DNA of 64,000 bases from the NCBI GenBank assembly GCA_031262085.1, contig JAISIN010000042.1, positions 18,049-82,048 on the forward strand, read 5' to 3'. This stretch comes from Prevotellaceae bacterium (GTDB lineage: Bacteria; Bacteroidota; Bacteroidia; Bacteroidales; Bacteroidaceae). The notes beneath the pieces are model-generated. The model was given only the letters and a program-made list of their open reading frames with translations. It had not been told where the DNA came from and made no database searches. The position numbers and the translations under genes are program-made. Shown piece by piece: positions 27,142 through 50,822 of this stretch (its first letter is position 1; every line of letters begins with the position of its first letter).

Positions 27142-27364
27142 TTTCGCAAGTATCTCAGTAGATATAACAGATTGTCCTGCGGCAGAAAAAGAATTGTCCT
27201 GCGGTAGAAAAAGAATTGTCCTGCGGCAGAAAAAGAATTGTCCTGCGGCAGAAAAAGAATTGTCCTGCCGCAGAAACTTTTTTGTCCTGCGCGGGAAAAA
27301 AAAATTTCCCGCTGGAGAAAATAAATTTTCCCGCGCGGGAAAAACAGAAAAGATACTTGCGAAA
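27142..27364. repeat. Inverted-repeat-bounded array of 8 x 22-bp dyad-containing units
   Basis: TTTCGCAAGTATCT (27142-27155) / AGATACTTGCGAAA (27351-27364); ttgtcctgcggcagaaaaagaa units starting 27172, 27194, 27216, 27238, 27260, 27282, 27304, 27326. Confidence 0.9.
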
Positions 27365-27580: not shown

Positions 27581-27645
27581 CGCCAATTACTAAAGTGAAA
27601 ACGCGCCAATTACTAAAATAAAAACGCGCCAATTACTAAAACTCC
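27581..27645. repeat. Three 23-bp direct repeats cgccaattactaaaryraaaacg
   Basis: Copies begin at 27581, 27604 and 27627, just upstream of the -7 box of the DUF4143 gene. Confidence 0.85.
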
Positions 27646-39188: not shown

Positions 39189-40205
39189 ATGAAAAGATTT
39201 TCCACCTGCTGGCTAACGGCGCTTGTGAGTTGCCACCTCCTCCTGTACGGACCGGACAGGAGCAACGCCGACACCTTGCGCTTCCGCGTGGTGAGCTATA
39301 ACGTGGAGAATCTTTTCGACTGCCGACACGACACGCTGAAGGAAGATACCGACTTCCTGCCCGGTGCCGTCCGGCATTGGAATGAGTCCAAGTACCGCAA
39401 GAAGTTAGACCGGATAGCCCGTGTCATCACTGCCGCAGGCGGCTGGACGCCTCCCGCCCTGGTGGCGCTCGAGGAGGTGGAGAACGACAGTGTGCTGCGC
39501 GACCTCACCCGCCGTTCGGCGCTGCGCGAAGCCGGCTACCGCTACGTGATGACACAGTCGTCCGACCACCGGGGCATCGACGTGGCGCTGCTCTACCAGC
39601 GGGGCATGTTCAAGCTGCTTGCCACGCAGCACATCCCGATACCCCCGACCGACGGCACGCATCACTTCCGCCCCACGCGCGACATCCTGCACGTCAGCGG
39701 ACTGTTGCCCACGCTCGACACGCTCGATGTCTTTGTCTGCCACTTCCCCTCCCGTGCGGGCGGCGCCGCGCAGACGGAGCCTTACCGGCAGCTTGCCGCG
39801 CGACAGCTCTCTGCCGCGATAGACAGCCTGTTCGGTTGCCGCCGCCATCCGCAGTTCCTGATCATGGGCGACCTCAATGCCGACTGCCGCCTGCTCAGCC
39901 ATCCCCGCCTGCACCACCTGCTGGACAACCGGGCGGAGTTCAGGCAGCACCGTTTCGGCAGCTATCGCTACCGGGGCGAGTGGGAGCTGATCGACCACAT
40001 CATCGTCTCCGATGCCTTGCTGCAACCCGACGCCCCCCTGCACGCCGACCGCCGCCACGCCGATGTGTTCCGTGCCCCCTTCCTGCTGCGCCCCGACAAG
40101 CAGTATGGCGGCAAGCAACCCTTCAGGACATACAACGGCATGCGCTACCAAGGCGGATACAGCGACCACCTGCCTGTATGGGCGGAGCTGAGGCTGGTGT
40201 ATTGA
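39189..40205 (+). CDS. Endonuclease/exonuclease/phosphatase family protein
   Basis: VSYNVENLFD; VALEEVEND; FLIMGDLNADC; GYSDHLPVWAEL. Confidence 0.9.
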   Translation: MKRFSTCWLTALVSCHLLLYGPDRSNADTLRFRVVSYNVENLFDCRHDTLKEDTDFLPGAVRHWNESKYRKKLDRIARVITAAGGWTPPALVALEEVENDSVLRDLTRRSALREAGYRYVMTQSSDHRGIDVALLYQRGMFKLLATQHIPIPPTDGTHHFRPTRDILHVSGLLPTLDTLDVFVCHFPSRAGGAAQTEPYRQLAARQLSAAIDSLFGCRRHPQFLIMGDLNADCRLLSHPRLHHLLDNRAEFRQHRFGSYRYRGEWELIDHIIVSDALLQPDAPLHADRRHADVFRAPFLLRPDKQYGGKQPFRTYNGMRYQGGYSDHLPVWAELRLVY

Positions 40206-40218
40206 AAACAGGCGTTAC

Positions 40219-40457
40219 TGTCCAGCGTCGTTGGACAGGCTGTCCCGAGTCTTTGGACAAGGTTGAAGGTGTGTCAAAAGCCCCTTTTTGGACTACGACC
40301 CTAGTCCACCCTGGACTACGACCTAGTCCACCTCTGGACTACGACCTAGTCCACCTCTGGACTACGACCTAGTCCACCTCTGGACTACGACCTAGTCCAC
40401 CTCTGGACTACGACCTAGTCTGCCTCTGGACTACGACCCCAGTCCGATTTTGACACA
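40219..40457. repeat. Array of 23-bp hairpin units (7 copies ggactacgacctagtccacctct) bounded by 10-bp inverted repeat, with two diverged 22-bp units upstream
   Basis: Units start 40290, 40313, 40336, 40359, 40382, 40405, 40428; TGTGTCAAAA (40270-40279) / TTTTGACACA (40448-40457); TGTCCA..TGGACA at 40219-40237. Confidence 0.92.
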
Positions 40458-40528
40458 TCCTCCAGTACGTTATTTTTTCCGCGCCGCCATATTCATCCGT
40501 CCCGTTGCTCGAAATAGAGAAAAGCCAC

Positions 40529-40536
40529 TATCTTTG
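40529..40536 (+). promoter_or_regulatory. -7 box TATCTTTG upstream of AAA-ATPase/DUF1703
   Basis: TAnnTTTG match. Confidence 0.45.
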
Positions 40537-40567: not shown

Positions 40568-42127
40568 ATGCAAGCAACGCCGCGTATCTTCCCCATCGGG
40601 ATACAAGACTTCGAGCAACTACGTACACTCAACAATGTGTATGTAGACAAGACCGACTTGGTGTATCAATTGGTCAAATCCAACCACACCTGCTTCCTGA
40701 GCCGCCCCCGCCGCTTCGGAAAGAGCCTCCTGCTCTCCACGCTGCGTGCCTACTTCGAAGGCAAGAAGCACCTGTTCGAAGGGCTTGCCATGGAGCAGTT
40801 GGAAACGGAGTGGACAGCGCATCCGGTGCTGCACATCTCCTTTGCCGGTTCCAAATACATCGAAGTGAAGAACTTGCAAGCGCTTCTGAACGATACGCTC
40901 GCCGGATGGGAAGCTATCTACGGAAGCAGCCCTACGGAAGAAACCTTCAACCTGCGCTTCAAGGGCGTCATCCGCCGTGCCTGCGAGCAAACGGGTCAAC
41001 AGGTGGTTGTACTGATCGACGAATACGACTCGCCCATCCTCAGTGCCATGGGCGCCAGCATGGAAGAGCGGCGCACCGAGCTACGCGGCATCATGCGCGA
41101 CTTCTTCAGCCCGCTCAAGGACAGCGGCGTGTACATCCGCTTCCTCTTCCTGACGGGCATCACCAAGTTCAGCCAGCTGAGCATCTTCAGCGAGCTGAAC
41201 CACTTGGAAAACATCAGCATGTTGCCCGATTACAGCAGCATCTGCGGCATCACCGAAACCGAACTGCTCACACAGTTCAAGCCTGACATCGCAGCCTTGG
41301 CAGCGCGCAACGGCGAGACCTATGAGGAAGCCTGCGCCCACCTCAAACAACTGTACGACGGTTATCATTTCTGCGAAAACACAGAAGAGATCTACAACCC
41401 CTACAGCATCATCAACGTACTGAAAAACAGGAAATACGACAGTTACTGGTACTCCACCGCCACTCCCACCTTCCTCATCGAACTGCTCAAGCACAGCAAC
41501 CTGATTCCCGAAGAGCTGGAGGGTTGCAAGGCTGTCGCCGATGATTTCAACACGGCAATCGATACCTTGACCGACCCCATTCCGGTGCTTTACCAGAGCG
41601 GCTACCTCACCATCAAGAACTACAGAAACGGCATCTACACGCTGGGTTATCCCAACGATGAGGTGCGCATCGGGTTTGTCCGTTCGCTGATCCCTTCAGT
41701 CATCGGGAGTGACGTGCAGAAGAGCAGCATGAGCATCATCGCCATGGCTGAAGCCCTCGACACCGGCGACGTGGAAACCTGCATGAAGCGGATGCGCGCC
41801 TTCATCGCCTCCATCCCCTATGAGCGGAAGAGCGACAACGAGTCGCGCGCCGAACTCATCTTCTACATGCTCTTCACGCTGATGGGACAGTTCACGCAGA
41901 CGCAGGTGCCAACCGCCATCGGTCGTGCCGACGTGGTCATCAAGAACAGGCAATACATCTACATCTTCGAAATCAAGGTGCACGGCACCGCCGACGACGC
42001 CCTCGAGCAGATAGAACGCCAACACTACGCTGTGCCCTACGAGACAGACCCGCGGCAGGTGGTGCGCATCGGCGTGACCTACGACGCGCAGACCCGCGGC
42101 ATCACCGACTGGAAAGTGGAGCGGTAA
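40568..42127 (+). CDS. AAA-ATPase-like/DUF1703 (PD-(D/E)XK nuclease) protein
   Basis: IFPIGIQDFEQLRTLNNVYVDKTDLVYQLVKSNHTCFLSRPRRFGKSLLLSTLRAYFEGKKHLFEGLAME; C-terminal GRADVVIKNRQYIYIFEIKV. Confidence 0.93.
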   Translation: MQATPRIFPIGIQDFEQLRTLNNVYVDKTDLVYQLVKSNHTCFLSRPRRFGKSLLLSTLRAYFEGKKHLFEGLAMEQLETEWTAHPVLHISFAGSKYIEVKNLQALLNDTLAGWEAIYGSSPTEETFNLRFKGVIRRACEQTGQQVVVLIDEYDSPILSAMGASMEERRTELRGIMRDFFSPLKDSGVYIRFLFLTGITKFSQLSIFSELNHLENISMLPDYSSICGITETELLTQFKPDIAALAARNGETYEEACAHLKQLYDGYHFCENTEEIYNPYSIINVLKNRKYDSYWYSTATPTFLIELLKHSNLIPEELEGCKAVADDFNTAIDTLTDPIPVLYQSGYLTIKNYRNGIYTLGYPNDEVRIGFVRSLIPSVIGSDVQKSSMSIIAMAEALDTGDVETCMKRMRAFIASIPYERKSDNESRAELIFYMLFTLMGQFTQTQVPTAIGRADVVIKNRQYIYIFEIKVHGTADDALEQIERQHYAVPYETDPRQVVRIGVTYDAQTRGITDWKVER

Positions 42128-48785: not shown

Positions 48786-50822
48786 TTGGAAGAAGTGGAA
48801 GAGACAGTAAATAGAGCGTTCGGTAACGGGCGATGCGATGAGACCACCGCAAAGCCAAACAACAATGACACCACCGCAAGTTCAAGCAGCGATGGCGCGC
48901 AGCCCACTTTCAATGTTCAATTTTTAATTTTTAATTTATCGAATGCGCTGCTCAGCCGACCGCGCAGTGCCGACGGTCTATGGACGGGCTGCCTCTCCTC
49001 CAGCCCCATCTCCACCGCGGTGGCTGTTTTTGCCCTGCACACCATCGACCGTGCGCGTTACGCCGAGCCGATCCGGAACGGTGCGGCATGGCTCCTCGGC
49101 GAGATGCGCGCCGACGGCTCGTGGGGCGATTCGCCCGAAAGCCCCTCCAACCTCACAGCCACGCTGCTCACCTATGCGGCGCTGACCGCCGTGGGACAAT
49201 TGCCCGCGCAGAGCATCGCCTACCTGGAAGCGCGCTTCGGCGGCTCCGACGAGCAACATCTCATCGAAGGTGTGCTGCGCTACTACGGCAAAGACCTCAC
49301 CTTCTCCGTGCCGATACTGGTGATGTGCGCCCTGGCAGGCATCATCCGTTCGTGGAAGGCGATACCGCGCTTCCCTTTCCAAGCCGCCCTCATCCCCCAG
49401 CGCTTCTTCCGCTACCTGCGCCTGCCGGTGGTGAGCTACGCCATCCCCGCGCTGATCGCCGTGGGCATCCTGCAATACAAGCGGCACAAGGTCGAACTGT
49501 TCCAGAAGCATCACAAGCGGAGACCCCTGTCGCGTGGTCAGTTGCAACGCATCGATCGCGCCCTGACGGTGTTGCAACGCTTGCAACCTGCCGGCGGAGG
49601 CTTTCTCGAGGCGCCGCCGCTCACGGGCTTCGTGTCGATGTGCCTGAGCGCTGCCGGTTACTCAGGCATCCCTGCCGTGCAGGCTTGTGCCGACTTCCTG
49701 GTGCGCACCGTCCGCCCCGACGGCTCCTGGCCTATCGACACCAACCTCTCGGGCTGGGTCACCTCCCTGAGCGTACGCGCCTTGGGCGCCGACACCCCCA
49801 ACCCCGAAGCCCTGGCAGAGACGATTATTAACAATGCCTTCCGCCACAAGCACCCCTTCACGGGCGCCGCTCCGGGCGGATGGGGCTGGACGAACCTCTC
49901 CGGCGCCGTGCCCGACGGCGACGACACCGCCGGCGCCCTGGTCGCCCTGCACATCCTGCTCAAAGGCGCTTACCGCCCCGAGATAGGCAGCGGCATCGAG
50001 TGGCTGCTGGGCTTGCAGAACAGCGACGGCGGCATGCCTACCTTCTGCAAGGGATGGGGCAAGCTGCCTTTCGACCGCAGCAGCGCCGACATCTCCGCGC
50101 ACGCCCTGTGCGCCTTCCGCCTCTGGGCAGCTGTCCTGCCCGACAAGCTGCAACGGCGGGTAGCGCGCGCCACCCGGCGCCTGCTCCGCTGGATGAAGCA
50201 GCACCGCGCCGCCGACGGCTCGTGGACACCCCTCTGGTTTGGCGATCAGGATGCGGCGGACGAGCAGTCGCCCGTCTACGGCACAGCCACCACCATCGCC
50301 TACCTTGCCGCAGGGACATGTCCCGATGCGCAGGGATGGGCTGCCGATGCGCAAACCTTGATTGCCGACGGCATCTCTTACCTGCTCACCGCACAGAACG
50401 TCGACGGCGGATGGGGTGGGGCAGCGGGCGCTCCCTCCAAGGTCACACTGACTGCCCGCGCCCTCTGTGCGCTTGCCTCCTGCACCGTCTTCCGAGGGGA
50501 AGACGGTTCGTCTTTCGAGGGGAAGACGGTGCGTCTTTCGAGGGGAAGACGGTTCGTCTTCCGAGGGGAAGACGGTTCGTCTTCCGAGGCGGAGACGGTT
50601 CGTCTTCCGAGCGAAAGACGGTGCGTCTCCTGCGAACAATGGGAGAACGCCGTACAGCAGGCAGTCGACTACCTCCTCCGTGCCCATCAGCGCGGCGCCT
50701 TGTATCAGCCGGAGCCTATCGGCCTGTACTTCTCCCGCCTGTGGTATTCGGAGGAGCTGTACAATCTCACCTTCGTACTGGAGGCGTTGAAGAAATTAAA
50801 AATTGAAAACCCCATCGCATGA
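48786..50822 (+). CDS. Class II terpene cyclase (squalene-hopene cyclase superfamily); true start uncertain
   Basis: DxDD motif SGAVPDGDDTAGALVAL; QW-like repeats RADGSWGDSP, QNSDGGMPTF, AADGSWTPLWFG, QNVDGGWGG; C-term GLYFSRLWYSEELYNLTFVLEAL. Confidence 0.85.
   Translation: MEEVEETVNRAFGNGRCDETTAKPNNNDTTASSSSDGAQPTFNVQFLIFNLSNALLSRPRSADGLWTGCLSSSPISTAVAVFALHTIDRARYAEPIRNGAAWLLGEMRADGSWGDSPESPSNLTATLLTYAALTAVGQLPAQSIAYLEARFGGSDEQHLIEGVLRYYGKDLTFSVPILVMCALAGIIRSWKAIPRFPFQAALIPQRFFRYLRLPVVSYAIPALIAVGILQYKRHKVELFQKHHKRRPLSRGQLQRIDRALTVLQRLQPAGGGFLEAPPLTGFVSMCLSAAGYSGIPAVQACADFLVRTVRPDGSWPIDTNLSGWVTSLSVRALGADTPNPEALAETIINNAFRHKHPFTGAAPGGWGWTNLSGAVPDGDDTAGALVALHILLKGAYRPEIGSGIEWLLGLQNSDGGMPTFCKGWGKLPFDRSSADISAHALCAFRLWAAVLPDKLQRRVARATRRLLRWMKQHRAADGSWTPLWFGDQDAADEQSPVYGTATTIAYLAAGTCPDAQGWAADAQTLIADGISYLLTAQNVDGGWGGAAGAPSKVTLTARALCALASCTVFRGEDGSSFEGKTVRLSRGRRFVFRGEDGSSSEAETVRLPSERRCVSCEQWENAVQQAVDYLLRAHQRGALYQPEPIGLYFSRLWYSEELYNLTFVLEALKKLKIENPIA
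50486..50628. repeat. Intragenic array of six exact 23-bp units (cgtcttccgaggggaagacggtt) with internal dyad
   Basis: cgtct starts at 50486, 50509, 50532, 50555, 50578, 50601, 50624; AAGACG-GTT-CGTCTT dyad. Confidence 0.95.

Follow-up and report, generated by a model that had tools for sequence, protein, structure and literature searches.

A tandem array of 23-bp hairpins between IS1182-type ends: a probable MITE with a minisatellite interior in a Bacteroides-related genome

The window analysed here, a stretch of 64,000 nucleotides from a Prevotellaceae bacterium, contains a short series of 23-bp hairpin units that lies between two genes and is enclosed by a perfect inverted repeat. The source assembly is a 3.18 Mb draft (90.6% complete), the named relatives of which are mainly Bacteroides. 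A sequence-only reading had described the series as MITE-like and had likened its layout to the BrickBuilt MITEs of Porphyromonas gingivalis. The locus thus raises the question of whether the array belongs to a mobile element and, if so, to which kind. Our results suggest that it is probably a non-autonomous IS1182-type mobile element (MITE), the interior of which has turned into a minisatellite. The features of the locus are as follows.

39189-40205, plus strand: upstream gene, endonuclease/exonuclease/phosphatase family protein (Pfam PF19580, E 3e-69), with its 3' end toward the element
40218-40259, no strand: two diverged 22-bp hairpin units (TGTCC..GGACA) found by TRF, abutting the left end of the element
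40265-40279, plus strand: left terminal inverted repeat GAAGGTGTGTCAAAA, matching the termini of MITEs and of IS1182-family elements from other Bacteroides
40280-40288, no strand: spacer GCCCCTTTT from the left arm to the array (9 bp on the left, none on the right)
40289-40447, no strand: seven tandem 23-bp hairpin units, the final one of 21 bp and ending at the right arm
40448-40463, minus strand: right terminal inverted repeat TTTTGACACATCCTCC
40505-40536, plus strand: candidate Bacteroides-type promoter of the downstream gene, TTG..TATCTTTG (TATCTTTG at 40529-40536), read from the sequence and outside the element
40568-42127, plus strand: downstream gene, AAA-ATPase_like and PDDEXK_9 protein (Pfam PF09820 and PF08011)

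The motif GGACTACGACC begins at positions 40290, 40313, 40336, 40359, 40382, 40405 and 40428, that is, in six exact steps of 23 bp, and the period and the number of units were therefore as the sequence-only reading had given them. Its statement that every unit contains the dyad GGACTA-CGACC-TAGTCC needs correction, however, since the exact dyad is found in only four of the seven. These four (units 2-5) are identical to each other (TGGACTACGACCTAGTCCACCTC), and the remaining three are diverged: unit 1 has an additional C in the loop and CCC at its end, unit 6 has TAGTCT and unit 7 has CCAGTCC. Identical inner units with diverged units at the edges are the usual pattern of expansion in place. 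The TRF score of the array (270) is far above chance, as 1.85 Mb of Markov null sequence did not contain any 22/23-bp array. As RNA, the array was predicted to fold at about -77 kcal/mol on the plus strand (z -7) and about -106 kcal/mol on the minus strand (z -10.5); such folding of both single strands, far above shuffled sequences, is expected from repeated hairpins. A second copy of the array was found neither in its own genome and the genomes of the family nor in plasmids, phages and viral contigs.

The perfect 10-bp core of the inverted repeat, TGTGTCAAAA (40270-40279) and TTTTGACACA (40448-40457), lies where it had been reported, and the element measures 188 bp from arm end to arm end, being short, non-coding and without a transposase gene. 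The arm sequences are absent from the rest of the window. Taken alone, a 10-bp inverted repeat of this kind is close to chance: the window contains 15 perfect ones with a span of 170-210 bp, and shuffled sequences contain 0-8. The significance of the arms comes solely from the homologous ends in other genomes. Readers of genomes should give little weight to a short perfect inverted repeat alone, even where it encloses an array, and much weight to homology of the ends to an insertion sequence.

When the element was compared by BLAST with 301 genomes of the family, matches elsewhere were essentially confined to the arms, which recurred in 22 of 30 genera and several times as inward-facing pairs. 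Further copies exist for the arms but not for the array. The pattern GGTGTGTCAAAA was present in 52 of the 61 Bacteroides genomes, and a reversed control pattern was rare. One genome (G030) has ten identical copies of an IS1182-family element, the transposase of which matches NF033551 (473 bits, 1e-141), and in most of them GGTGTGTCAAAA lies 189 bp from the transposase gene (178 bp on the other strand). An IS1182 copy (L224/L307) ends in exactly the sequence of the right arm and the bases adjoining it (ATTTTGACACATCCTCCA). In other Bacteroides, GAGGGTGTGTCAAAA ends bound intact IS1182-family insertion sequences, multi-copy MITEs (131-236 bp) and internally deleted hairpins. Several MITE families of 171-188 bp with these ends are common to different Bacteroides species, and one genome has a multi-copy family of 133-143 bp along with internal deletions of 39-50 bp, in which both ends were kept. 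Judged from these homologies, the arms are very probably IS1182-type terminal repeats. The description as MITE-like is supported by the arms, given their match to the termini of multi-copy MITEs and IS1182-family elements in other Bacteroides; the array is single-copy and gives no sign of dispersal of this exact element. The host genome also has further elements with the same ends and other interiors, and three short hairpins (C73, C131 and C20) are best read as small IS1182-type relics.

No IS1182 transposase above the cut-off was found in the 90.6% complete assembly, and one was present in 7 of the 12 genomes searched. The sole weak match in the assembly (23.7 bits) resembles another transposase family. 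Note that a relic MITE does not require a partner transposase in the same genome.

The element shares with the IS1182 family (NF033551), of which IS1272 is the studied member, the ends (GAGGGTGTGTCAAAA/TTTTGACAC(A)CCTC in Bacteroides) and the lack of a target duplication, and the flanks of its relatives tend to be complementary; it differs from the family in having no transposase and an interior composed of a 23-bp hairpin array. Three IS1182-type MITE families, alpha, beta and gamma (L271-L282, L285-L305), are common to Bacteroides species and often interrupt palindromes. They resemble the window element in their ends, size range and intergenic site, whereas their interiors are non-tandem and multi-copy and that of the window element is tandem and single-copy. 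Among the listed elements bounded by terminal inverted repeats, only the window element has a tandem interior, so that two ends may possibly have captured an array that existed before.

The flanks of the relatives were consistent with a known mode of transposition. In 44 distinct elements, the left and right flanks were complementary at positions 3, 4, 6 and 7 beyond the core to a greater extent than in all 500 shuffles, and long flank palindromes were seen in single cases (L212, L260 and L294); one IS1182 copy lies within AATGATATAAAAAG..CTTTTTATATCATT. This complementarity agrees with the transposition of IS1272, which replaces stem-loops without target duplication and favours terminators (PMC5678879, PMC4923244). 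For the window copy, neither a target duplication at the element nor a target palindrome in the flanks, beyond the end sequence itself, was found; a duplication is not expected under IS1182/IS1272-type transposition.

We propose that an IS1182-family transposase, supplied elsewhere or since lost, would have recognised the GAGGGTGTGTCAAAA ends, and that, at the 3' end of the endonuclease gene, the element would have inserted into a stem-loop and taken the place of part of it without target duplication, as IS1272 does. An interior hairpin may then have been amplified in place to seven copies, probably by slippage or unequal exchange, in the same process that would have produced the other 22-23-bp arrays of the genome. 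On balance, we infer that the array moved with the element or arose by growth inside it. The likely effect is passive, the element presumably giving the upstream gene a 3' end rich in hairpins, before the own promoter of the next gene. The promoter consensus of Bacteroides has -33 and -7 elements, the latter being TAnnTTTG, and we take TTG..TATCTTTG to be a candidate promoter by its likeness to this consensus. As it lies outside the element, any transcription of the element would be as the 3' end of the transcript from the upstream gene.

Outside the assembly, the nearest relatives of the genes have 69% protein identity and do not share the gene order; no relative that keeps the gene neighbourhood of the element was found. 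The upstream gene has a second copy (G000:C44:590-1570, L128), 81% identical and with another neighbour, which is either a paralogue or from a contig of another strain within the bin.

Accidental nesting should also be considered, in which IS1182-type ends, for example from two solo elements or by partial replacement, would have hit an array of 22/23-bp hairpins located where the endonuclease gene has its 3' end, the array itself never having been part of a mobile unit. Such arrays are frequent in the host (90 in 1.85 Mb), and two 22-bp hairpin units lie just beyond the left arm. These units, suspected from the sequence, are real (TRF, 40218-40259, 1.9 copies) and may be the remnant of a hairpin array hit by the insertion of the element; however, no sequence identity was detectable between them and the inner 23-bp units (P 0.14), which speaks against nesting. 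Hairpins are IS1182 targets, and four of the six such ends in the host genome have another 22/23-bp array no more than 75 bp away, with P 0.006 against random intergenic positions for a threshold that was set after the data were seen; this closeness counts for the proposed insertion as a MITE as well as for nesting. In contrast, the distance of 188 bp from arm to arm is that of ordinary MITEs in the 171-188 bp class, and we consider nesting unlikely.

A nature of the arms other than transposon ends, namely that of an outer stem in a conserved transcription terminator, with the whole acting as a terminator or as a stabiliser of the mRNA 3' end, is quite improbable. The site directly after a stop codon, the many relatives at gene ends with terminator-like inner hairpins, and the very stable predicted folding would suit such a role, but ends of the same kind also delimit multi-copy MITEs and whole IS1182 copies, in the latter with a constant spacing to the transposase. 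Moreover, a consensus scan of the site found neither an intrinsic terminator nor a sigma-70 promoter, and no Rfam family matched the element.

Membership in the BrickBuilt family, which in P. gingivalis has IS5-type ends GAGACCTTTGCA, a 23-nt unit AGAYCATARTATCCTCTCRTRTG, a leader and a tail, and 19 copies (PMC4596501), was rejected on sequence and is hardly credible: the likeness of layout stands (23-bp tandem repeats within short inverted repeats, intergenic, in Bacteroidales), but the ends are not of the GAGACCTTTGCA type, the units match at 11 of 23 positions, no better than shuffles (P 0.76), and the window array abuts its arms, with neither leader nor tail. Another element of the host (L198:14230-14425, L326:19835-20000 and L349:1-109), with a leader and/or a tail in common and a 23-bp array TCGGCACTTTTTAGACCGCTCGT of varying copy number, is closer to the leader-array-tail layout of BrickBuilt than the window element is, without having the BrickBuilt sequence.

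To place the array among others, we refer to a TRF census of 1.85 Mb of the host genome, taken in stretches (L128-L205, L318-L357 and the window) with crude ORF calls as genes. Among the 123 intergenic arrays, 90 have a period of 22, 23, 44 or 46, against two with period 21 and three with period 24; the periods of coding arrays lean to multiples of three. The same-length Markov null and 200 kb of E. coli contained no 22/23-bp arrays. In 636 kb of other Bacteroidales loci, including Parabacteroides and Phocaeicola, period 22 was the top long-period class. By the sequence of their units, the 90 arrays sort into about 40 unrelated families, 22 of which were encountered a single time, and the families have no common motif above shuffles. 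Representatives of 12 of the 40 families are significant hairpins, the window unit being the second strongest. Other 22/23-bp arrays of the host thus share the period class with the window array, and some share its hairpins, whereas these arms are missing from the large multi-copy families and from almost every other array. The window array is thus an ordinary member of an unusual array class.

Hairpin formation was rejected as an explanation of the fixed unit length, since only 12 of 40 families fold better than shuffles. A strong bias in the orientation of arrays relative to genes was likewise rejected, the counts (tandem 26, convergent 9, divergent 7, against 84/34/62) showing a weak one under crude gene calls. 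As our own suggestion, 22-23 bp, which is about two turns of supercoiled DNA, may be the basis of the unit length. Tentatively, a process in Bacteroides, and possibly in Bacteroidales, may generate or maintain 22-23-bp arrays whatever their sequence, whether hairpins, non-hairpins or arrays inside transposon ends, so that the window element and BrickBuilt would both be length-locked minisatellites; we regard this as possible but rather doubtful. If the length rule is real, BrickBuilt would fall within a wider phenomenon, and the arrays would offer a testable system for the birth of bacterial minisatellites and their fixed unit length. The window element connects stem-loop-targeting IS1182 elements and MITEs with genome-wide 22-23-bp intergenic arrays, which were unlinked in the papers searched. 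This literature, outside which most subscription papers lie, described neither IS1182-type MITEs nor 22-23-bp array classes for Bacteroides, a weak sign of novelty.

Several other arrays were observed. In the window, intergenic arrays of the 22-23 bp class are also present at 27171-27344 and 27581-27641, and a 23-bp hairpin array CGTCTTCCGAGGGGAAGACGGTT lies at 50486-50628, in frame within an ORF (48786-50822) that we presume, from its sequence, to encode a squalene-hopene-cyclase-like protein. A unit much like CGTCTTCCGAGGGGAAGACGGTT recurs next to the IS1182-type relic C73. Elsewhere in the host genome, an element of roughly 450-490 bp with several distinct 22/23-bp mini-arrays occurs at two loci (L158:9700-10160 and L355:10800-11290), and at L167:1530-1805 a 22-bp array lies between inverted copies of another 22-bp array, so that the arms themselves are built of arrays.
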